Origin: Armatimonadota bacterium | Lineage (GTDB): Bacteria > Armatimonadota > Fervidibacteria > Fervidibacterales > Thermosaccharophagaceae | Length of the DNA: 37,611 bases | Reading direction: 5' to 3' | Assembly: GCA_025062195.1 (NCBI GenBank) | Contig: JANXAS010000031.1 | Location: 1-37,611 of the forward strand | In this document: positions 10,483 through 37,611 of the stretch, piece after piece | Position numbering within the stretch: the first letter of the stretch is position 1 | Layout: each line of letters opens with the position of its first letter | Position numbers and translations under genes: made by a program | The notes under the pieces: generated by a model | Told to the model about the DNA's origin: nothing | What the model saw: only the letters and a program-made list of their open reading frames with translations | Database searches by the model: none

Positions 10483-13125
10483 TCATTTTTCCTCCAACAC
10501 AACAATGCTCAGCGGAGGTATGGAAACAGGCTCGTTGAGTGGGATATGGCTCTCAGTTATAGCATTAACGAACCATTGCAGTTTCATAGGCAAGCGCGCA
10601 GTCATAATGCGCACCTTTGCATCATGCACCGGGTCAAAGTTGAGCAGGAAAATAGCGAGTTTGCCTTTATACTCCCAAGCAATTGGCAAAACCATATCAG
10701 GAGAAATCAATGCGTCTTTAGGCAACTCTATCCTTTTTCCATCCAAAAACCAATCCTCAAATTTGGCGATGATACAGCTGGCACGGGCGACAGCATTGTT
10801 AAACCGACCGTCAAAACCACGATATGACCAAAAGTGAATCCCACGATAACCTATCGCTACATGCTGAACCATCTGCAATGTTGTTAGTTCAGGGTAGTGA
10901 TAGTTGTATGCGTCAACACGATTATATCCAACCGAAAGCATAGCCCAAAGTGGCGTGCCAATGTCGCCAACCATTTCCAGTGAACGAACCGATTCTTGAT
11001 GCAAAGTTGTTCGGCTTCTAATCGGTGAGTTGCAATATCTGAAGAACATCCCGCCTTTGATGTAAGGCAAAACCTTTCGCCAAGGCAAACGACCATCTGT
11101 GACTACACCATCATGCACGGGCGGACCACTGTTGATATAAAGACCCATCTTCGTATGTTCCTTTTCAATCCGCTCTGCCCACTTCTTCACCATTCTCTCA
11201 GTCTGGCTTAAGGCAAAATCAACCCATCTCTCCCTTAGCTTCGGATTGTTGTATATGGTTTCAAAGTCCAGTCTGTGTTGAAGTTTAACGGAAGAAAATC
11301 GCCCAAACGCTTCCATACAACGCTTGCAAAAGCAAACATGCCAAACACCAGGTCCTTCCAAATCCCAATTCCATCCAACTGGCGAGCCTTTTTCATTGGC
11401 AATGATGTTACAAAATGCCTCCTCAAATGCTTTGCTTCCTTCCGAGAGTAGAACCTCGGGACAAACCATACCAAGTTGCAAATCTGCGGGCTTTCCTTCG
11501 GCATTTATTGCGGCATCTTCTGGGTGCCTCTTCAAATGTTCAGGTGCCCACCAGAACCACCAAAAACTTCGCATCGTTGAAATTCCATACTTTTTCGCCA
11601 AAGCGTCAAAGCGTGCGTCGTGGATGCCTTCTTGCAATCCAGTTACGCCCAACTTTTGATAATGCGCCAACATCTCTTCCCACCCTGTTTTGGGCAAAGC
11701 AGGACCGTGAAGCCAGATATAAATTGGGATTCGCTTCGGTTGACGCCCAATTTCTGCTGGCAGAACTACCAAAAGAATCTTCCTTGTCGGCTCTGCCTCA
11801 TTATTTCGGCGGACAGTTGTGTAAAGCCATGTATTGTGAGGCAACTTCAACCATTTTGGGACTTTCGCCTTAAACCAGAGCAAAAGCGGCTGCATCCAAA
11901 GTTCAACTTTGTCAATTGAGTCACCCCAAGGTGGCGATGTGACTTTAATGGTGACCTTACGGTAGCGCTGACCGTCACGAACTGTCCAATCGCGCTTTAT
12001 TGCGCCAATCTCGGGGCAATTGACATGCTCTTTTTTGCTTGGTGGGTCCAAAATCTCCATCCACTCTGGCACTTCAATCACTGCCTCATAGCCCTGTTTC
12101 CTTCCATTTGTATCGCTGACCAGAAGCCAGAAGTAAGCCAGCTGCCCATTGGCAATGTAGAAGGTGTTGTTGTAAACTTCCACAGGCCAAAGGGCACTTG
12201 TTAAACCACCACGACCAGGATGGTAAATTGGTATAACAGTCTCAACTGTCGGCTGCTTGGGAACTGTCAGTCTGACGCCACAGCGATAAGGTCCTGCGGG
12301 TAGGTCTGTAGGGATAGTGTAGCGTAAAAAGTTAGTTTGCGCTAATGGCAATCTGAAAGGTTGCCCTGCAAGCGAAATCGTCACTTCCGCACCAGCTGGT
12401 ATTGGAATGTCTGAGTTTAGCGCAATAGTCAGCTGCTTCAATTGCCTCTGCTCTCCTTGTGCTTCAATCAACCCAATGCCTTTCAACCTAACATTAGCTA
12501 AGCCGAAGACGATTCGTCCAAAGCGTTCAGAGTCATGAAAATGACCTTTTACTGGCGCCCAACTGCTAAGTTCACCATGGGGTCGTTCCTCACGAGTGAA
12601 ATTTATGCCGAAACATTCACCTTGCTTTGGTGGCTTTGCGCCAATCGTGGCAAAGGGTATTGCCATTTCCACTGTCCAACCTTTTTCGCTTCTTTTCGCT
12701 GCACAGCGCCAGCGGCTATGATAACCGTAATCGTCCAAACCAACACCCAACGGATTGACAACGGCATGAAAGTAATAAAACCAGTGCTTGTCTACATCGG
12801 GCTGAATGAACACCTCTACACAATCGTCCTGCCAGACTGGACCTGAAGGGTCCTTATGAACGGTGCGAATTAAGTCCATTCTCTCCTCGTGACAATCAAA
12901 GGCTATGTAAATGTTCTCATTATCATAAGCAGCCTGTGCAGTCGTTGCCTGTTTTGGCGGCTTGTCTGTGCCAAGCTGATTCTCAAGCGTTACCTTTTGC
13001 GCGCTGCCCCAAATCGCATCGTCCAGTTTCCCATCCAAATTTGGCGCCATACCTTTCGGAACTTCAGTAGCGTAGATGAACGGAAGCAATTTTGGCTGTT
13101 GCCCTAACTTAGCTATAGGCTTCAC
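10483..13125 (-). CDS. CBM9-like plus glycosidase-like protein, lacks signal peptide
   Basis: This open frame encodes 880 residues. Residues about 25-215 resemble the CBM9-like domain (NLDGKLDDAIW, WQDDCVEVFIQP, GWTVEMAIPF, GINFTREE). The middle is beta-rich. From about residue 480 a TIM-barrel-like hydrolase region follows (VGWNWDLEGPGVWHVCFCKRC, then GYRGIHFWSYRGFDGR), with no family assigned. These are secreted-type domains, yet there is no signal peptide. The frame continues upstream without shift through a TAA at 13144-13146 into a laminin-G-like segment and then a signal peptide, so this is probably the 3' part of a broken 1112-codon gene. A GTG at 13125, with GAGG only a few bases before it, would allow weak re-initiation. 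Confidence 0.7.
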   Translation of the reverse strand: MKPIAKLGQQPKLLPFIYATEVPKGMAPNLDGKLDDAIWGSAQKVTLENQLGTDKPPKQATTAQAAYDNENIYIAFDCHEERMDLIRTVHKDPSGPVWQDDCVEVFIQPDVDKHWFYYFHAVVNPLGVGLDDYGYHSRWRCAAKRSEKGWTVEMAIPFATIGAKPPKQGECFGINFTREERPHGELSSWAPVKGHFHDSERFGRIVFGLANVRLKGIGLIEAQGEQRQLKQLTIALNSDIPIPAGAEVTISLAGQPFRLPLAQTNFLRYTIPTDLPAGPYRCGVRLTVPKQPTVETVIPIYHPGRGGLTSALWPVEVYNNTFYIANGQLAYFWLLVSDTNGRKQGYEAVIEVPEWMEILDPPSKKEHVNCPEIGAIKRDWTVRDGQRYRKVTIKVTSPPWGDSIDKVELWMQPLLLWFKAKVPKWLKLPHNTWLYTTVRRNNEAEPTRKILLVVLPAEIGRQPKRIPIYIWLHGPALPKTGWEEMLAHYQKLGVTGLQEGIHDARFDALAKKYGISTMRSFWWFWWAPEHLKRHPEDAAINAEGKPADLQLGMVCPEVLLSEGSKAFEEAFCNIIANEKGSPVGWNWDLEGPGVWHVCFCKRCMEAFGRFSSVKLQHRLDFETIYNNPKLRERWVDFALSQTERMVKKWAERIEKEHTKMGLYINSGPPVHDGVVTDGRLPWRKVLPYIKGGMFFRYCNSPIRSRTTLHQESVRSLEMVGDIGTPLWAMLSVGYNRVDAYNYHYPELTTLQMVQHVAIGYRGIHFWSYRGFDGRFNNAVARASCIIAKFEDWFLDGKRIELPKDALISPDMVLPIAWEYKGKLAIFLLNFDPVHDAKVRIMTARLPMKLQWFVNAITESHIPLNEPVSIPPLSIVVLEEK

Positions 13126-13143
13126 TTCCTCGCGGACATTCCC

Positions 13144-13821
13144 TTAAACGGCAACTTGCACAGAATCAACGGTGAGGGCGCCCCAGCAAGAAGCGATGTA
13201 AATACGCACCATTTTTGGCAAGTCGGCAGCACTGTAACGAAGCGTCGCCCAATCACTTCCATCCTTAGAAAATTGCAACTGGCAAAATGCTTTCCCTTCC
13301 CTTCGCCTGATGGTGATACGCAAGAACTCATAGTTTTTTATGCTGTTCGTGAACGGCTGTTTCGTTTGCACCCAATCGCCACCTGCTATTACTTTATACT
13401 TCCCGCCCTCACTGTATTCTGGCCATGTAAGCAAGAAGCCAAACTGCCTTTGCTTTTGGTTTTCAATCTCTTCCAACAGGGAGATTGATGAGTCATAGAT
13501 GTTGAGGGGTTTCCCGCCAACTCTGTGGAAAAATGACCGGATTTTGAAAGTGGCCCCAATTGTTCCATTTTCTCCTTCCTTTGGCAATCGCCAAACACTT
13601 GCACTTTTTATCCCGCGCCATTTGCCATTTCCAAAGACCTCTAAATGCCCATCGCGCACCCGAACAATTGACCATTGGTCAAGTTCCTTACAGAGCTGTC
13701 ATTTGCTATTGTCCAACTTGCCTTGATTGAAGTCGTCATAAGTTGCCTCACATACTTGCAAACCCGTTTGGACGAGAATCAAGCTGACCAAGACCATCAT
13801 CATTTTCCTCTTGCCCATCAT
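13144..13821 (-). pseudogene. Signal peptide and laminin-G-like domain, split by in-frame TGA
   Basis: Starting at ATG 13821 or 13818 behind AGGTGAATTA, a signal peptide (KMMMVLVSLILVQTG, then CEA) leads into YDDFNQGKLDNSK and stops at TGA 13701-13699. In the same frame the sequence goes on as QLCKELDQWSIVRVRDGHLE and through a concanavalin/laminin-G-like domain (WRLPKEGENGTIGATFK, YEFLRITIRRREGKAFC) to TAA 13146-13144. The word DNSK-W is a common start of such domains, so TGG (Trp) changed to TGA is the obvious reading. The codons after the TGA look fully protein-like. The frame then runs without shift into the 880-codon CBM9-like frame. An inactive split gene is most likely, and readthrough is the alternative. 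Confidence 0.75.
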
Positions 13822-26398: not shown

Positions 26399-29300
26399 TC
26401 AGCGCTCCAAAAAGAAGTTTACTGCCTCACCAAATGGCGAATTGCGCCACTGCAGCCTCAGTGTGATCTGGACTGCCAAAGCCTTCTTTGGCAACGGCAG
26501 CTTAATGCCATTAACCGCTACATCCTCAAATCGTTCAACCCTTTTCGTGATTGGCACGCGCATTGCCTCATTTCCATCTACGCCGATGGAAAGGACGATG
26601 CCGTTTAATTCATCCTTGCATTGGCTTGGCGGTAGCCATGCGGCTTCGCCTGTGTTGCCAAGCTCAACCTTGAGCCATAACGACTCAGCGTTGCCAAAAC
26701 CAAGCTCTTTCAACCTGACGGTATCACCATCGTTCACCTCGTGCCATCGCTTTCCATCCGGCGATATGAAGACAGCGTTGAATTCGCCATTGATGAACTT
26801 TGGCGGCTTCATAGGTTCCCATTTGGTGTTGCCGATCGCAAGACGCGGGACTTCATCGCAAGTCTTCCCTGTGCCATCGGTGCGCAACATAACGAGCTTA
26901 CCATCCCTTGAAAGCCTTGATGCCTCATCACCATGTTTTAACCATAGCGCCATCGGACCGCGGGCATTCTCATCTCGGTCAATCGTAATATAGGCAACTT
27001 GCCTGCGGTCAACCATCGGCATGTTCATGAAGGCTGTAGCCCATTTCCTTGCAACTTCAGCAGCCGGACGAATTGTCCCATCGGGGTTGACGAGACCAAA
27101 ATCGCTTCTCTCATCAACACGGTATCCTCCGGGAAACCACCATCCCATTGCACCATCGGCGTCGGTAATTCGTATTAGGCGATAGAACGCCTCGTAAAGC
27201 TTAGCTTGTGCCTTTAGTCTCTCTTCATCGTCATACCAATCAAGCGAAAATGAACCATGCCTGAGCGTCAATCCGAATTCAGCCCAGAACACCGGCTTAC
27301 CATTTCCAGCCCAACGGGCGTATGCAGTTATGAAGGCAGCACTTGCAAACTGTTCCTCGTCAGCCTGCCCAAGCCAACCGAGATTCCATCCCTCGGGCGA
27401 AATGAAGTCCAAATGCTTTGCGCCAGCAGTATGGTCAAATGGGAATGCCCCCTCTGCGCCGAATGGACCGCCACCATAGCCGGTGCGCGCGCCTATGAGA
27501 TGGTTTGGATCAAGATTGCGTATGAACCGACAGACCCTACGATAGCTGCGGCTGATGAAGTCGTCAAGGAAGCGCCTATAAGCAGCTGCCATAATTCGCC
27601 ACTCGCCATCCTTGAGCAGGTGCTCATCCATCGGCACAGTTACATTGCCCTTATCATCCCTGGGTAGTTTGAAGCCGAAGTCCCTCTCAGCTGCCTCAAT
27701 GTCCCCGTAGTTCTCAATTAGCCACTTACGCCATTCGGCATCGTGTGCACGCCTATTACCGTAGCCGCCAAGACGAGGTTCCCAAGCGATGTCATATGCA
27801 AACAATGCCGGTTGATTGGGTAGGTCAGCAGATTCAATGAGTTGCCTAATGATATTAGGATTGAATTCAAGCGGATGCGCACCGGAGATGAATAAGTTAA
27901 CTTTGATGCCATGCTCATAGCAGCGGCGAAGAAAATCGCGCAGCGGCAATGCCTGATTGGCATTGTAGAATGAAATGCTGACACAGTTCATCCCGATGGA
28001 CTTCAAAATGCGCAAGTCCTCCTCAACGACAGTTGGGTCGTAATTTATTGGGTCAAGCCAATGGCGACCGTAGTCAGTCGGCTCCTGTCCAGCGATGAAG
28101 CGCGGCCAGTAATTAAGTCCGAAGGCAAACCAACGCTTGCCGCGATGGACGAAGTGACCGCCGCGAATTGTGACCTTGTCTTCATCAGTTACTTTTGGGC
28201 GCATTGTGACAACAAGTTCGCTGCGCAACTCATCGTAAGTTACCTCAGCGCCGCCATAGGCGCTAAGCAACCTCACATCCACCTCGTATCGCCCACTTCT
28301 AAGCTTGGGCAGCTTCCATGTCACCGTCTCAATATCTCCCGATGTGAGCCTGATTTTCTCCTCAAATGATATGGCAGCTTTGGTTGTTGCCTTCGCGCCG
28401 GCTATCGCTTTGACTTCAACCCTAACTTTGATGTCTGCGGCATTGTCACTGAGGTTAGCCACCGTTGCGCCAAGCTTGATTGCCTCGTCTTCATATGCTG
28501 TGAACCTGTCTGCGCCCCCCTCAATCAGCACGATGCCATCAATCAACCGCTCAATCATCCTGCGGATTAGATTCAGGGATGATTTTGTGAGCCATAAGTC
28601 CTCGTCAGCACTCCCGAAGCAAAGCCACCAAGAGCGTGCATACGGCAAATCGGCATTCAGCATCAGCCAAGCAATTGGTGGGTTAGCCAACGGCACATAT
28701 CGTGATGGGCGCCCGCCAACGAAGCCGATGCCAGTGTGCCTTGGGACTGGTGCAACTGCGCGCTGTAGCGGCGCACTCAAAATTAACTTCTCCGGTTTGT
28801 GAGGCGGCATCCCGATAAAGTTTATGCTGCTAACTTTGCGCAACGGATAGAACTTGTAAGCTGGGCAGAGTGCCTCAAGTGATGGCGCTGCGAATTTGAC
28901 TTGCGCGCCTTCAACCGGGTCTTTTGCTGTGCCGATTCCGGCGACAAAAATTGTGTGCATGCCATGTGGCATAGGTCCTTCCATGCCAAGGACGAGCGTG
29001 CGTGCATTTTCAACTTTAAAGCAATCGCCGGCAAAGCCACGCTTGCCCGCAGTTGGACTATCCCTCCTAAAAATGAAGTCGTGCGGCGATAGGACAATCA
29101 GCTTCCATTCGGCGCTCAATGGGACATGCGCAAACCACCGTGAGCCGTCAACCTCGCGCCATTCAATCATGAGCGATTTAGTTTGCGGTGCACCTTTAGC
29201 CCACAGGCATGTGAGCACATGACCGCTCTCGAATGGCGATGAATCAAATGCCCGAGAGAATATGCCCCACCCCTTAAGCTCAAGGTCAATTCGCAACGCA

Positions 29301-30430
29301 TCAAGCGTAGTTCCGTTGGCTTTAAATGCGTAACGCTCAACGCCGAGCTTATCAGAAACACCGCTATGGCTTGCTGCATGCGTCCAACGCTTCAACTCCG
29401 CCTCATCAACTCGCTCGATGAGAAATCGCTCCGGCTTTGTCGCCCTGCGCAGCGCATCAATTTCGCCGGCTGTCATCCACCTCTCGCCAGTTTGGGTGCG
29501 GACACGAAATAGCACCTCTTCAAACAGTGGCACACCGAATGTGATTATCTTCCCGCCACACCTCAAAAATTCAAGCAAGCCATCCCTGCAAGCAGCTGGC
29601 ATGCGCCTGCCATTTGGTAGGACAGTAATCCCCGAGTCAATTGAGCGCCACCACTTATCATCGGAGAGTTCTTTTAGCGTTGCCAATCTCACCTTCAAGC
29701 CGATGCCATTCAGCTCATTTGCAAGCGCCCTGCTCAGATGCAGGTTGCCCATCACTTCATCCATCACCACGACAGCGCTTCGCATGCTTAGCACCACACC
29801 TATCTCTCCTTGAACTGATTGTCTTGCGCCGTCAAATGACGCATTCATGCCCTGCACATTCAATGCCATCCACCCGGAACGCACTATAGGAGTGTCATTG
29901 AGCGCATAGCATCTTCGCCACATCAGATTGCCATTCAAGTCAATCACTTGCCCTTCAATCTCCGAGCGAGTGAGCAAGATGCGCAATTGGTATCTTTGCC
30001 CCCATGACCATGAGAAAGTTGAACCGTGCTCAGCTATCACCTTTAACTTCAACTCGGTTTGTGCCTGCCATACGCCATCATTCATAGCCACGAGCTCTGC
30101 GTATCTTGTTTTGCCATCCGGCGCTTCAACGAGAGCTAACCGCCAGAAGTTGCCGCCATCTTGGTAAATGCAAATGCCTGCCGCTACCCAACCACCCGCG
30201 ATGCGTTCCTTGGGAAGCATTACAGCTTCCACAGTTTGCGCCCTACCATATCGGCTAAATGTTGGGATGGCAAATGCATGCCCACCGGTGCTCTCACCAA
30301 CAATTTGCCCATCCACAACCCTCCAACTACCACCGACGAAACGCCACCTCACATTTTGCTGAAGGCACATTGCTGAGTGAAATAGAGAGAGGGAAAGATA
30401 GATGCACAGCAGCATGTTAGTGCAACGCAT
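26399..30430 (-). CDS. Giant secreted multi-domain glycosidase-like protein
   Basis: A 1343-residue exported protein. The signal peptide is LLCIYLSLSLFHSAMC (residues 7-22). Residues 25-220 resemble a laminin-G-like domain (WRFVGGSWRVVDGQIVGES, FWRLALVEAPDGK). Residues about 230-330 resemble an alpha/beta amidotransferase-like domain (VVVMDEVMGNLHLSRAL, LLEFLRCGGKIITFG). A long beta-rich middle follows. From about residue 770 a clan GH-A TIM barrel begins (WFAFGLNYWPRF), with acid/base candidate in FAYDIAWEPRLGG (about 835) and nucleophile candidate in PVFWAEFGLTLRHG (about 1010). A C-terminal beta domain ends the chain. ATG 30430 follows GAGGTGAAGCAAAG. The substrate is unknown; GH5, GH42 and GH2 relatives are all possible. 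Confidence 0.75.
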   Translation of the reverse strand: MRCTNMLLCIYLSLSLFHSAMCLQQNVRWRFVGGSWRVVDGQIVGESTGGHAFAIPTFSRYGRAQTVEAVMLPKERIAGGWVAAGICIYQDGGNFWRLALVEAPDGKTRYAELVAMNDGVWQAQTELKLKVIAEHGSTFSWSWGQRYQLRILLTRSEIEGQVIDLNGNLMWRRCYALNDTPIVRSGWMALNVQGMNASFDGARQSVQGEIGVVLSMRSAVVVMDEVMGNLHLSRALANELNGIGLKVRLATLKELSDDKWWRSIDSGITVLPNGRRMPAACRDGLLEFLRCGGKIITFGVPLFEEVLFRVRTQTGERWMTAGEIDALRRATKPERFLIERVDEAELKRWTHAASHSGVSDKLGVERYAFKANGTTLDALRIDLELKGWGIFSRAFDSSPFESGHVLTCLWAKGAPQTKSLMIEWREVDGSRWFAHVPLSAEWKLIVLSPHDFIFRRDSPTAGKRGFAGDCFKVENARTLVLGMEGPMPHGMHTIFVAGIGTAKDPVEGAQVKFAAPSLEALCPAYKFYPLRKVSSINFIGMPPHKPEKLILSAPLQRAVAPVPRHTGIGFVGGRPSRYVPLANPPIAWLMLNADLPYARSWWLCFGSADEDLWLTKSSLNLIRRMIERLIDGIVLIEGGADRFTAYEDEAIKLGATVANLSDNAADIKVRVEVKAIAGAKATTKAAISFEEKIRLTSGDIETVTWKLPKLRSGRYEVDVRLLSAYGGAEVTYDELRSELVVTMRPKVTDEDKVTIRGGHFVHRGKRWFAFGLNYWPRFIAGQEPTDYGRHWLDPINYDPTVVEEDLRILKSIGMNCVSISFYNANQALPLRDFLRRCYEHGIKVNLFISGAHPLEFNPNIIRQLIESADLPNQPALFAYDIAWEPRLGGYGNRRAHDAEWRKWLIENYGDIEAAERDFGFKLPRDDKGNVTVPMDEHLLKDGEWRIMAAAYRRFLDDFISRSYRRVCRFIRNLDPNHLIGARTGYGGGPFGAEGAFPFDHTAGAKHLDFISPEGWNLGWLGQADEEQFASAAFITAYARWAGNGKPVFWAEFGLTLRHGSFSLDWYDDEERLKAQAKLYEAFYRLIRITDADGAMGWWFPGGYRVDERSDFGLVNPDGTIRPAAEVARKWATAFMNMPMVDRRQVAYITIDRDENARGPMALWLKHGDEASRLSRDGKLVMLRTDGTGKTCDEVPRLAIGNTKWEPMKPPKFINGEFNAVFISPDGKRWHEVNDGDTVRLKELGFGNAESLWLKVELGNTGEAAWLPPSQCKDELNGIVLSIGVDGNEAMRVPITKRVERFEDVAVNGIKLPLPKKALAVQITLRLQWRNSPFGEAVNFFLER

Positions 30431-30559
30431 CTTTGCTTCACCTCGCTGGCAAACATCCTTTGGTAACATGCCCGCTTTAAATGCAAGGCGAAACGCAATT
30501 GATGATGAGAAGTAAAATGCGTCGTTTTTGGCGCCCTCAAAAAATGCTAACTGCACTCC

Positions 30560-31864
30560 TCACAGGATGATAAAACACGAAATGTGTGGATGGAGTTTTT
30601 GCCCTTTATCCAAGCGCATGCAAGCTCCGATAGCTAAGTTGCGCGATACTTCCCATTGAATCGCGGCGTATATGCCACCTGTGGTGAAGTGAATGTCAAT
30701 TGAGGTTCTTCTTGCGCTGTCAATGTCGCACAGCTCAATTGCAACTCCAGCTCCAACATTGCCACCAACCGGCAGCATCAGTTCGGATTTTAAAGCGACA
30801 ATTGGCACCTGTTCAAGTTTTGAGGCAGCCTCCTCAGCGCTCTTGCTCTCAAACATCGTCATTTTGATGAAGCTAATGATGGCGTCTTTAAGTGCCGGTG
30901 CGCTGAATTGAGCGCACAGGTGACCGGTGTAAAGGCGAATCATTGGCGGTCGCCCAAAAGCTTCCCACAGTTTAATGCATGCTCTCCTTGGAACAAATAA
31001 ATCATATTCGCTCATGACCATCAAGATGTGCTTTCCCCTCGCCATTGCAGCATATGTTGTAGGGTTGATCCAGTATAGCATTGAGTGCAAGTCATCAAGC
31101 GTTACACCCTGCTTCTCAAGCGAACGCCTAAACTGCCTTGTGAGCCAGCTATCCCAAATCGTTAAAGCGATATCGCCACCAAGCACATTGACACAGACAG
31201 TCAATCGTTCATCTATGCCAGCAAGCAATGCAGCTATGATGCCACCAAGGCTTACACCGACGATGCCAAGCTTTGACTTGTTAACAAACGGTTGCATGCA
31301 TAGCCAATCAATCAGCCTCATTGCATCCATTGCGGCTTGCCTGAGAGCTTTTATGGCGTTCTCCGGTGTAGTTCGGAAAATGAACTCACCGCTACCCATG
31401 CTTATAGGAGCGCGATGCATATGGTATGGTAGCTCCATAGTTGCAGCCACAATCCCGATGGAGGCAAGTGACCTTGCAAGGTATCGTTCATTCGCTGCAT
31501 CTCGGACACCAAGTGGGTGAAGAATAACGACAGCTGGAACAGGCTCTTTTGCGGAAGAATTCGGGATGTAAACGAGTGAGTGAACAGTGTCATTTTCAAT
31601 CACACCCGACCTTAACGGCGTTGGGAAACGCAGCTTCAACACCCGCATATTGCTGTTGCCGCCGATTGCCTCCGTTTCAAATTGTCCCTCTTCAATCGGC
31701 TGCGGTTTGAATAGGGTAACAAGTTGCTCAGGTTGTTCATACTGCCCCAATGAACCTATGCTGCGTATGCTTCCTTCAGCTACGATTGGCTTAATAGCCC
31801 AGCTCAACCAAAGAGGCGCAAAGAGCCAACAAACTCTCACCAGCCGTATCTCTCTGGACCCCAT
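30560..31864 (-). CDS. Secreted alpha/beta hydrolase with beta-rich C-terminal tail
   Basis: A 434-residue predicted exported serine hydrolase, dienelactone-hydrolase/acetyl-xylan-esterase-like. Signal region: VCWLFAPLWLSWAIKPIVA. The fold begins at VPAVVILHPLGV. The nucleophile elbow is GIVGVSLGGI near residue 195, the acid Asp is in MVMSEYDLFVP near 280, and the His is in LYTGHLCAQF near 305. About 90 residues follow that are not part of the fold (PVGGNVGAGVAIEL ... GGIYAAIQWEVSRNLAIGACMRLD), resembling alternating strands of an outer-membrane barrel. It overlaps the 3' end of the nucleotidyltransferase gene by 28 bases (ATG 31864 after GAGGAAGGA); an alternative GTG 31840 overlaps the stop as GTGA. 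Tight coupling to that gene is certain. Confidence 0.75.
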   Translation of the reverse strand: MGSREIRLVRVCWLFAPLWLSWAIKPIVAEGSIRSIGSLGQYEQPEQLVTLFKPQPIEEGQFETEAIGGNSNMRVLKLRFPTPLRSGVIENDTVHSLVYIPNSSAKEPVPAVVILHPLGVRDAANERYLARSLASIGIVAATMELPYHMHRAPISMGSGEFIFRTTPENAIKALRQAAMDAMRLIDWLCMQPFVNKSKLGIVGVSLGGIIAALLAGIDERLTVCVNVLGGDIALTIWDSWLTRQFRRSLEKQGVTLDDLHSMLYWINPTTYAAMARGKHILMVMSEYDLFVPRRACIKLWEAFGRPPMIRLYTGHLCAQFSAPALKDAIISFIKMTMFESKSAEEAASKLEQVPIVALKSELMLPVGGNVGAGVAIELCDIDSARRTSIDIHFTTGGIYAAIQWEVSRNLAIGACMRLDKGQKLHPHISCFIIL

Positions 31865-33463: not shown

Positions 33464-33718
33464 ATGAAGTCGCTTGGAAACCCGATTGGTATTAGTATCT
33501 GGTTTGCAAATTCAAGCTTTCGCGTGGGACTCAAGATGATGATTCAAATTCTGAATAGCGGCAGTGAATTTGATATGGTGGGATAAATCGCCCGAATGCT
33601 TGGTTATTTTGAGGTAACTTGGGGGGTTGACAAGATTTGCCAAATGCAGTATGATGATGGTGTCGTTGGCAAACCTGTTATCGTGATAGGTGGCAATGGT
33701 GAGTATGGCAATGCTTAA
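33464..33718 (+). pseudogene. Remnant of an unrecognised gene with in-frame TAA
   Basis: From ATG 33464 a frame encodes KSLGNPIGISIWFANSSF and reaches SEFDMVG, then TAA 33584-33586. Still in frame it continues IARMLGYFEVTWGVDKICQM and ends GGNGEYGNA at TAA 33716-33718. The second half is strongly protein-like. The 3' end overlaps the start of the next remnant by 23 bases, as in intact operons. No family was recognised. The 226 bases upstream (33238-33463) show nothing clear besides a protein-like stretch near 33410 in another frame, perhaps the same gene before a frameshift. Confidence 0.5.
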
Positions 33719-34870
33719 CTATCAGATGTGTCCTCGTTGCAGTTAGGACAACCAACAGGTTGCCCGTCGTTGCATACACTGTGGCAAACCACTTTCCGAT
33801 CGGCGTCGCAGACACAGTGGGTGGATTTTTGGCATGGCTTTTGGCAGAACTTTTGCTTGGCAAGGCTCTGGCTCAGCGAGGCATTGCGCTTTACCTCACC
33901 GATGCCAAGTTTGGAGCCTTAGTCGGGGTTGTGCTTGGGGTTGCTTTTGGATTGACAGTAGGCAAAGCAGGCAGTGTCTTTTTGCAGCATTGCTCAGCAG
34001 TGGGTTAGGGTTGGTTGGTGGTTGTGTTGACGTCCTGTGGGGCGAAGTGTTATTTCAGTTGCTTTCGCCCATCGCTTTGATTGCCTGCCCGACGGAGTGG
34101 GCATTGTTCGGCTGTGTTCTCAGCTCATCACAGGGAATAGCCCGTGGCTCAATGAAGGGCGCAAAAAGGACAGCCTTCGGTGGAGGCTTAGGTGGCTTGA
34201 GTTTTGAAGTTCTGCAAATGAGCACCAACCTTCCCGACAGCGTTTGCCGCGGTATAGCTGTGGTTCTTATTGGAGCACTCATTGGGACATTTGCCTCACT
34301 ATTTGAACGCCTCTTCGCTTTGGCAACCATTAAGATTGCCTCAGGCAAACTGGAAGGAAAAGAGTTCATTTTGGACAAGCTTGTTGTTATTATAGGACGG
34401 GATGAACGGTGCGATATCCCGATTTACTATGACAGAGCAGTTTTGCCCCAACATGTTCGGTTGTAAGCAACTGGTCAAGGCTACCGGCTTCATACTTTGC
34501 CCAATGCATCTGTTTTGGTGAGAGGATCTGTGAGCACTTTCTTTGGCTTGTGGCGAGAAACAGACTCACATCTTCTGATGTCCTTCCCTTACGGCAAAGG
34601 GTTCGTCATCTAAACTGCTTTTCATAATAAAGCGCAGCCATCAGAACAGGAGCGGGAGTTGATTGAGGTCTTAGCGTTGCGCCCTTTGACGATGAACCTG
34701 TCTCAAGATGTTGCCAAGGAGATTGAAAGTCAACCCATTGAAGTAGGGACACTGGGTGAGAAGCCACCTGCTGGGCTTCTATCAGGCGTGCGACTGACAA
34801 TGCAGCGAGAGATTGTGGGCACAATCGGCACAGGACAGGCTTCGCCCGTTTACCAGTTCACCTTATACCG
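33696..34870 (+). pseudogene. Broken zinc-ribbon, membrane and FHA-domain protein
   Basis: Reading with repairs, the chain starts at ATG 33696. It has a zinc ribbon MCPRCS-(TAG 33747)-DNQQVARRCIHCGK (C-x2-C-x10-C-x2-C), then shifts frame near 33795 to a hydrophobic stretch (GFLAWLLAELLLGKAL, GALVGVVLGVAFGLTVG). It shifts back near 33985 (SSGLGLVGG ... VVLIGALIGTFASLFE), then enters an FHA domain (GKEFILDKLVVIIGRDERC). In-frame TAA codons lie at 34465 and 34611, with protein-like codons on both sides (GYRLHTLPNASVLVRG; then NKAQPSEQERELIEVLALR). FHA domains bind phosphothreonine, so the intact protein was probably a membrane signalling protein. Two shifts and three stops make it clearly non-functional as one chain. 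Confidence 0.65.
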
Positions 34871-34888
34871 TTTTAAAGAATTGTCGTT

Positions 34889-34951
34889 ATGTAGGGCGAG
34901 ATTTCATATCCCGCCGACAATTTCTTCGGCTCGGTATAAAACCGCACCCTA
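34889..34951. repeat. TGTAGGGCG palindromic repeat
   Basis: TGTAGGGCG at the left faces CGCACCCTACA at the right, with ATTTCATATCCCGCC and TTCTTCGGCTCGG between. The same TGTAGGG/GGCTCGG words occur in the repeat fields at 15705-15850. From 34952 to 35047 nothing was recognised. Confidence 0.5.
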
Positions 34952-35047
34952 CAAACAACAATTTTTCAGCGTAGGCAGTGCCTTCACCCTAAAACATTTT
35001 ACGAAAATTTTCTGAAATGGTATTACTTTATGGTCTTTGTATTTGTC

Positions 35048-35872
35048 TCAATAATCGTCAAGGAAATGAAAGACAAATATATCCCTACGATTTGCATCAA
35101 AATCATTGGCACGGGCATTAAAATCCTTTGCTTTGAGATAGATTTGAATCAATGGTCTTTGCGTAAATAGTTCAAAATACTTTCCCTTGTTGGACGCTTT
35201 TCTTTTGGTAATTCCCACTACCATTTGATACTTCCTCTCCAATCTCTTTGAATGCCAGGTATTTTCTCAAGAAAGTAATTCGGAAGGTTCTTCCTTCAAT
35301 TTAGCTATCCAAAGCGGGATAGAAAAAATCCCTAAGTTAAGTAACATTTCAAAATCGCTGTCTTTCGTTGTCCTCCTCCAGGCACGATATCTCTCTTCAA
35401 ACTACTTCGGCAATTCCTTGTCTTTTATCTCCAACCAGTGCAGTCAATATTTTGCATATTGCTTTCGCCAATCTGGTCTGGTTAGTTGTATTTTCAGGCT
35501 AAACTCTGGGAACTCTTCAATCGCTACTCGCATTCTTCTTGAATGAGGATCATAAACCTGTATAACCTCAAACCTTGTCTTGGTCAATTCTGAAATTGTA
35601 TAAACAATCCCAAAAGGACCAGCAAAATCAAAAATCTCCCCCTCTTTGATCTTCTCAATAAAGTAGACCACTGCCTCTCTACCTTTACGCCTTAGTTTGG
35701 CAAAAGATTCGTGCATGAAATAAGGTTTGAAATCGCAGAACGCCTGACCATGTGTCAAACAATACTTTTTCCATTGCTCATACAACTATTCCACCGTCTC
35801 ATCCTTTGTCTTCGGATAAGAAGTGCTCATCAAAACTGCCAGTGTGATAAACAATATTGAGCAATGCCGCAT
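35048..35872 (-). pseudogene. Secreted protein gene with four in-frame stops
   Basis: One uninterrupted frame runs from ATG 35872 to TGA 35048, containing stops TAG 35788, TAG 35404, and TGA at 35446 and 35269 (5' base on the minus strand). The start has a good ribosome site (AGGAAGAGATGAACTGCT) six bases after the previous gene's stop, and a signal peptide CSILFITLAVLM. Between stops the codons remain protein-like: AKLRRKGREAVVYFIEKIKE, LHWLEIKDKELPK, FEERYRAWRRTTKDS, RPLIQIYLKAKDF. All four stops differ from TGG by one G-to-A change, and Trp fits each context (KELPK-W-FEERY). No family recognised. It appears to have been the last gene of an operon with the HEAT-repeat and DUF7689-like genes. 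Confidence 0.7.
35444..35785 (-). CDS. Longest open segment of the broken secreted-protein gene
   Basis: This 113-codon segment lies between the first (TAG) and second (TGA) stops of the gene at 35048-35872. A TTG at 35785 could nominally start it, but no ribosome site is present and the upstream codons encode the signal peptide in the same frame. If translated alone it would be cytosolic. It is listed so that it is not mistaken for an independent gene. Confidence 0.3.
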   Translation of the reverse strand: MYEQWKKYCLTHGQAFCDFKPYFMHESFAKLRRKGREAVVYFIEKIKEGEIFDFAGPFGIVYTISELTKTRFEVIQVYDPHSRRMRVAIEEFPEFSLKIQLTRPDWRKQYAKY

Positions 35873-36146
35873 AGCAGTTCATCTCTTCCTGTAGAATTTA
35901 GTGGGATAGCCATAAGACCCACCATCTAACAAGATGTCTCTATGTTCAATGAGTGGACCACCTCCGCACTTACTTTCTTTCGAGCATAATCCATCGCCTT
36001 GCTCCACATCTGCAATTAGGCGACTCACGCCTCTTTGCAGCGTGAAACTTTGAGTAATAGATAATATCCGCCGAATCTTTGTCATTCGTCCCATAATAAT
36101 CCTGTTTTTTATCCTTGTTTGGGTCTTTGTAAAACTCATCCACCTC

Positions 36147-36422
36147 TCAATCCTCTAACTTCTCGTTCCCGTTGCCATACCTTTCATCAATGTCCATGTA
36201 AAGGATTTTTGTAACTGGATCTCTCCAAACACCATCCACAGTCCCTGGCTTGTCAATCTCGCCATCATTCTGCTTATCAAGCTCATCAGGCAGCACACTT
36301 ATAATCCACACATCTGTTCTGCCTATTGACCATGCAATGCAGTTATAAGATGGGTCTGCTCCTTTCAAGATACTCCATTCGCAGCGGGCCGACTTCTCGT
36401 TTGCAAATATACGTTCATCCAC
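36147..36422 (-). CDS. DUF7689-like open segment of the broken gene
   Basis: This 91-codon segment between the second and third TGA carries CEWSILKGADPSYNCIAWSI and an Asp/Gly-rich part (NDGEIDKPGTVDGVWRDPVT). The GTG at 36422 has no good ribosome site. It is in the same frame as the segments on both sides, so it is probably not an independent gene. Confidence 0.35.
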   Translation of the reverse strand: MDERIFANEKSARCEWSILKGADPSYNCIAWSIGRTDVWIISVLPDELDKQNDGEIDKPGTVDGVWRDPVTKILYMDIDERYGNGNEKLED

Positions 36423-36425
36423 AAA

Positions 36426-37049
36426 TCATTGACGCTCACTTGTCCTTGGTTGGTTGCCACAATCCGCAGCAATGAATGTGTATTTGACCTTCTCCCATGC
36501 CACAACTTGCCACTTTCTGTTAATCTTCTTTTTATATCCAACTTCTAACAAACAAACGCTATTGTTCTCCATACCTTCAACCCACAAGTTATCTTTTATC
36601 TCCAAAAAGGCTTGCCTTTGAACTGGGTCAGATAAATCCCAACTCTTCTCATAAACTCCTACCAAAACTTTATTGCCTTCCCCTTTCTTTTGACTTTTCC
36701 ATACCCTTGCATGATTTCTTCCAGAAACTAATCTCACTTTGAGCAAAATTTTCCCTCCATTTGGAACTACACCCCTAATTCTTGGAAAGAGAATTCTGGC
36801 TTTCTTAAGATCTTCTTCCCCAACGACACTTGCTTTTATTTGAAGACAATCTCCACCCGGATGCTTTGTAGCACCAACTTTATTATCGCTACTATCATCG
36901 TTATCCAAGTTGAAATGAACGAAAACGCCGGGATTTTCCTCCTCATCCTCTGGAACAGGCGATTTGAATAAATCTGTGGAAACGAGATTGATTATTGCTG
37001 AAGACTCCCTTGCATTCAATTCCAAAACAGGCTTTTCTTTTTGCTCCAA
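36426..37049 (-). CDS. N-terminal open segment of the broken gene
   Basis: This 207-codon segment lies between the first and second TGA of the gene at 35879-37115. It starts nominally at TTG 37049, without a clear ribosome site. It looks beta-rich and secreted-type (ESSAIINLVSTDLF, GKILLKVRLVSGRNHARVW, WQVVAWEKVKYTFIAADCG). No family recognised. It is the longest intact piece and could conceivably still be translated. Confidence 0.4.
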   Translation of the reverse strand: MEQKEKPVLELNARESSAIINLVSTDLFKSPVPEDEEENPGVFVHFNLDNDDSSDNKVGATKHPGGDCLQIKASVVGEEDLKKARILFPRIRGVVPNGGKILLKVRLVSGRNHARVWKSQKKGEGNKVLVGVYEKSWDLSDPVQRQAFLEIKDNLWVEGMENNSVCLLEVGYKKKINRKWQVVAWEKVKYTFIAADCGNQPRTSERQ

Positions 37050-37111
37050 TAAACTAACTCATTCACATTCCAACTCAAATTCAAACCTTATTAATGGTGC
37101 AACATAAATTA

Positions 37112-37611
37112 TCACCACAATGTCTCTGGTGGGAATTCTTCCAACTTTTTAATTTCTTCTGGTGACAGTTTACCACCCAATTTCTTGATAGCACTAAGAA
37201 TTTCCACCTCCATCCTCAATCTATCAGCCCCATGTGCCGGTCTCACCTTCTCAAGAGCTTTCATTAAGGTAGGTAAGGCTTCCTTTAGTCCTAATTGGGC
37301 AATTTTTTGAATTGCCCAACAGGCAAGTTCCTTATCCTCGCTAAAAATTGCTGCTTCCAATTCCTTATTTCGCTGTGGAGAGTTCCAAATATTAACCCTC
37401 CGAATAGCCCTCTCTATCCCGGGGCGATTATAAGCAGGAGTCTTGGCAAGCATTTTCTTCAAAACTGGTAAAGCTTCAATGCTACCAATATAACTAAGCG
37501 CTATTGCAGCCACAAACCTAACAAAAGGATCTTTATCTTGAAGCATTTGTTTTAGCATAGGAACATCACTTTCATCACTAATACAATACAATGCCCTTGC
37601 TGCTGCTGCTT
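37112..37611 (-). CDS. HEAT-repeat protein, C-terminal part (runs off window)
   Basis: The frame is open to the window edge, so the start lies beyond 37611. At least three HEAT/PBS-lyase-type helix pairs are visible: MLKQMLQDKDPFVRFVAAIA with LSYIGSIEALPVLKKML, an ELACWAIQKIAQLGLKEALP unit, and ALEKVRPAHGADRLRMEVEI. HEAT repeats form protein-binding solenoids; partner unknown. The stop TGA at 37112 is followed directly by TAA and overlaps a possible start (GTGA) of the next gene, so they were coupled. Unlike its two downstream neighbours, this gene shows no internal stop within the window. Confidence 0.8.
   Translation of the reverse strand, partial: AAAARALYCISDESDVPMLKQMLQDKDPFVRFVAAIALSYIGSIEALPVLKKMLAKTPAYNRPGIERAIRRVNIWNSPQRNKELEAAIFSEDKELACWAIQKIAQLGLKEALPTLMKALEKVRPAHGADRLRMEVEILSAIKKLGGKLSPEEIKKLEEFPPETLW

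Follow-up and report, generated by a model that had tools for sequence, protein, structure and literature searches.

Two adjacent genes at the right end of the window, by which we mean the whole analyzed stretch of 37,611 nucleotides (contig C95 of a 3.42-Mb draft genome that is 97% complete), are interrupted as assembled by seven in-frame stop codons, five TGA and two TAG, plus one frameshift. They raise the question of whether such codons are translated in this bacterium or whether the genes have simply decayed. The original prediction favored recent pseudogenization, with suppression, import from a host that decodes these stops, and assembly error as alternatives. A check of the sequence placed all seven stops where that prediction had them, and the single frameshift and the GTGA overlap at 37112-37115 are present as well. 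The features of the locus are the following.

37112-37611, minus strand: 3' end of a HEAT-repeat gene, open and cut by the contig end; GTGA overlap with the remnant of gene A
35879-37115, minus strand: pseudogene A, what remains of a gene for a putative secreted or surface-type protein ending in a DUF7689 domain; 5'-truncated, with three in-frame TGA and one frameshift
about 35978 (35976-35980), minus strand: frameshift in A, at an E / SKCGG junction; the tail beyond it ends at a stop at 35879-35881
35048-35872, minus strand: pseudogene B, homologous over its N-terminal and central portions to the gene that follows A in relatives

Intact relatives provide the reference against which both genes are disrupted. 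The homologue of A in G001, a genome of the same order, shares 63% identity with it and contains no stops, and further stop-free homologues are found in L006, from a Sedimentisphaerales MAG, and in G270 and G290, from the same phylum. The open frames of the latter three comprise 639, 673, and 815 residues, respectively. A and B form a conserved pair, since a homologue of B directly follows that of A in G001, L006, and G270. The intact homologues of A are located as follows.

L007:2789-4024 (G001), intact homologue of A
L006:5545-7464, intact homologue of A
L093, L094, and L095, intact homologues of A

The C-terminus of A matches DUF7689, a family of unknown function. No family match was found for the B protein of G001, PDB searches with the profiles of A and B returned no meaningful match, and structure prediction for the C-terminal region of the L006 protein from one sequence was uninformative (mean pLDDT of 32). 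A search of the same draft genome yielded no second copy of the locus. In G001, the intact pair is preceded by a weakly DUF6345-like gene and a propeller-like gene (L007:576-4744), an order that suggests a larger secreted or surface unit, which is absent upstream in the window.

Comparison with these relatives reveals more than one kind of lesion, as A has also lost its 5' part and B its C-terminal homology. The start of A, which had been described as intact, turned out not to be ancestral. Homology starts at once from its GTG, which falls inside the homologous region, and where the relatives extend upstream, by approximately 45 residues in G001 and by up to 200 or more in others, the window has the end of the HEAT-repeat gene. 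In B, no recognizable homology was detected beyond position 35267 or so, where the relatives carry a WWE...IP motif. The remaining part of A differs from its G001 counterpart at 28, 23, and 60% of first, second, and third codon positions, and because third-position differences far exceed those at the other two, A was under constraint for a long time and until recently. Synonymous sites are saturated between the two sequences, so that dN/dS is not computable.

The residues found in homologues at the positions of the stops are given here for each site.

37059-37061, minus strand: stop A1, TGA; D (G270), N (G001), or S (L006) in relatives, weakly aligned
36426-36428, minus strand: stop A2, TGA; R in five of six homologues and A in the sixth, in a partly ambiguous local alignment
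36147-36149, minus strand: stop A3, TGA; T, S, D, or A in homologues, Trp in none
35786-35788, minus strand: stop B1, TAG; Q, A, W, E, and A in homologues
35444-35446, minus strand: stop B2, TGA; within an alignment gap or indel, with L or A nearby
35402-35404, minus strand: stop B3, TAG; W in the nearest relative, G001, and R, K, and R in others
35267-35269, minus strand: stop B4, TGA; mixed, non-conserved residues, at the point where homology fades

Trp had been thought to read naturally at each stop, and a G-to-A change from TGG had accordingly been proposed as their common origin, with glutamine as another fit at the TAG sites. The homologues lend little credit to these proposals, as they mostly have Arg, Ser/Thr, Asp/Asn, or mixed residues at these positions. 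Trp is present in G001 at one of the seven sites only, the B3 TAG at 35402, and at B1 in one distant relative. None of the aligned relatives has it at A1, A2, or A3, and no version of the ambiguous local alignment around A2 yields it. Glutamine fares no better, being one of several residues at B1 and missing from those at B3. Likewise, no Cys was found at the aligned stop positions among the relatives of A and B. A single amino acid shared by all stops, Trp or Gln, is thus without support in view of this heterogeneity, and the alignments indicate that the stops mostly occupy variable positions. The related claim that the frame remains protein-like on both sides of every stop stands in part: flanking residues align with homologues across A2, A3, and the B2/B3 region, B2 itself is unalignable, and homology is fading at B4.

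Decay is not limited to the two genes. On the opposite strand, the adjacent gene is broken as well.

33714 to about 35015, plus strand: third decayed gene, with a zinc ribbon, a glycine-rich membrane stretch, and an FHA/Yop-YscD-like domain; its pieces, over 33714-34990, alternate between two frames
33744, plus strand: TAG stop in the third decayed gene
34464, plus strand: TAA stop in the third decayed gene
34611, plus strand: TAA stop in the third decayed gene

The Yop-YscD/FHA match (E value of 1e-7) spans the first of the two TAA codons. Three adjacent genes are therefore broken, and the stops cluster in one 3.4-kb block, most of the contig being open, with genes of up to 1385 codons. An intergenic repeat near 34.9 kb was also considered and was set aside, as it has one copy only within the window.

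Two other frames of the window deserve mention in their own right. On the minus strand at 10483-13812, the frame of a CBM9-containing gene runs upstream through a TAA (13144-13146) and a TGA (13699-13701) to a signal-peptide-like start, and this is possibly another broken gene. PDB and plasmid searches found no relative of its N-terminal part, and Trp would, we presume, be plausible at the TGA, the asterisk in DDFNQGKLDNSK*. At 26399-31864, also on the minus strand, the 434-codon frame of an alpha/beta hydrolase is closed by a TGA at 30560, beyond which a 1385-codon glycosidase-like gene follows without a change of frame; these are probably two adjacent genes.

The identity of the stop codons had been taken as a sign against random decay, which should also have produced TAA. 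That all seven lie one step from TGG is true and at the same time uninformative, as this holds for every TGA and TAG and says only that TAA is lacking. If these or comparable genes acquired stops by neutral point mutation, 28-37% of the new ones would be expected to be TAA, and the probability of finding none among seven is approximately 0.04-0.10. The absence of TAA from A and B is thus real but weak evidence, as it would be for any such handful of stops, and TAA does occur in the adjacent decayed gene. When that gene is included, two of ten stops are TAA (P = 0.26-0.41), a mix compatible with neutral mutation.

The amount of amino acid change in A and B was also compared with the number of stops. 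In columns where L006 and G270 agree, relative-rate counts were 19 for the window versus 17, which represents little excess of amino acid change and depends on the outgroup. When stops and missense changes were fitted jointly, 2 x delta lnL came to 6.9 if the stop share was that of all point mutations (even spectrum) and to 2.7 if it was taken from C>T/G>A changes alone, both values being outgroup-dependent; over the four outgroup sets tried the statistic ranged from 0.4 to 11, and the fit is not decisive. The data thus hint at a modest shortfall of missense changes relative to what the seven stops would imply. Any such excess of stops over neutral drift could stem from a very recent loss under a transition-rich mutation spectrum, from inactivation favored by selection, or from some errors in the consensus.

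If the stops were read as Trp or as another single amino acid by means of a suppressor tRNA or a reassigned code, A and B would be functional. The slight shortfall of missense changes and the Trp residues at B3 in G001 and at B1 in a distant relative would fit such readthrough, which is nevertheless very unlikely in view of the residues at A1-A3, the truncation and frameshift of A, and the decoding capacity of the genome. With the Rfam tRNA model, 44 tRNAs plus tRNA-Sec were found in the draft (97% complete), including a single tRNA-Trp (CCA). None of the 44 has a CUA or UUA anticodon, and the proposed search for UCA or CUA anticodons returned only the canonical tRNA-Sec, the sole UCA tRNA (73.8 bits). 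RF-1-family release factors are present in two copies, taken as RF1 and RF2, and conserved genes end in both codons, TGA for SelA, SelB, and one release factor gene, and TAG for other frames of that sample. Suppression as originally envisaged finds no support in these results, and the shortfall of missense changes is no rescue for readthrough, given the residues at the stops and the other lesions. A weaker version, in which low-level readthrough keeps A and B partly functional and so explains the missense lag, with a Sec-like tRNA-Cys possibly joining in leaky UGA decoding, is just as doubtful. Still less probable is that the TGA sites encode selenocysteine, or cysteine via a selC*-like tRNA-Cys. 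The genes for SelA and SelB complete the selenocysteine machinery together with tRNA-Sec, and the genome has an extra Sec-like tRNA with a GCA anticodon; however, the residues in relatives exclude selenocysteine in practice, folding downstream of all seven stops revealed no hairpin beyond those of shuffled sequences and no SECIS-like element, and the TAG sites would be left unexplained. Apart from this standard selenocysteine machinery, the genome decodes its stops normally.

Apart from the stops themselves, nothing favors the idea that the locus is an insert, mobile or viral, whose host of origin used a different code. Phage and viral-contig searches with gene A found no relatives, and the nearest homologue belongs to a bacterium of the same order, in which the pair is conserved and stop-free. 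Together with the two release factors and the lack of a matching tRNA, this makes the imported element that had been suggested scarcely credible. The main rival, improbable but less so than the others, is that errors of assembly or consensus calling produced the stops and the frameshift in genes that are actually intact. Low-coverage assemblies commonly contain spurious internal stops (PMC11017572), and the position of the block near the contig end and the missense deficit would fit point errors. Such errors would have to cluster in A, B, and the FHA-like gene while genes as long as 1385 codons stay open in the same window, and neither the 5' loss of A nor the missing C-terminus of B is a point error.

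We therefore favor, with a probability of roughly 0.87, a block of recently inactivated genes comprising A, B, and their FHA-like neighbor, because the relatives have open frames in which the residues at the stop positions differ, A is frameshifted and lacks its 5' part, B has lost its C-terminal homology, and the neighbor is broken, with TAA among its stops. The first choice of the original prediction is thereby upheld. A conserved two-gene unit, with A of the DUF7689 type and B as its downstream partner, would have lost its function in this lineage. The stops would represent ordinary nonsense mutations in genes released from selection, and translation would presumably end at the first of them.

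The extra Sec-like tRNA is more unusual than the pseudogene block. Encoded at G000:C84:57108-57199 (L042:1409-1500), it comprises 92 bases, with a GCA anticodon, U73, a 4-base D-loop, a long variable arm of 7 bp, and a 7/5 fold, and it coexists with a normal tRNA-Cys and the canonical tRNA-Sec (UCA). That it might be a sense-recoded tRNA-Sec was dropped when the canonical UCA tRNA-Sec was found, and U73 indicates a tRNA-Cys. A similar tRNA-Cys, selC*, has been described in Firmicutes, Thermodesulfobacteria, Nitrospirae, and Proteobacteria, but its reported fold is 8/4 rather than 7/5 (PMC7609411).

What looked like a candidate recoding signal is thus most likely the result of ordinary decay in a small, conserved pair of genes, and the residues in homologues together with the decay of a neighbor settle such cases quickly. 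With bacterial selenoproteins, the genome has the SelA/SelB/selC machinery in common, whereas the stops of A and B are without a Cys or Sec position and without a hairpin. With reassigned codes, such as TGA read as Trp (of the NCBI table 4 kind) or TAG read as Gln, A and B share in-frame TGA and TAG codons in a protein-like context; in contrast to such codes, a matching tRNA is lacking here, the release factors are present, TGA and TAG end conserved genes, and the residues at the stop sites vary. Recent bacterial pseudogenes with multiple lesions are the closest match, being alike in their nonsense changes, frameshift, end truncation, intact orthologues, and decaying neighbor. There is no essential difference from them; the stop count in A and B is only slightly high relative to their missense changes.
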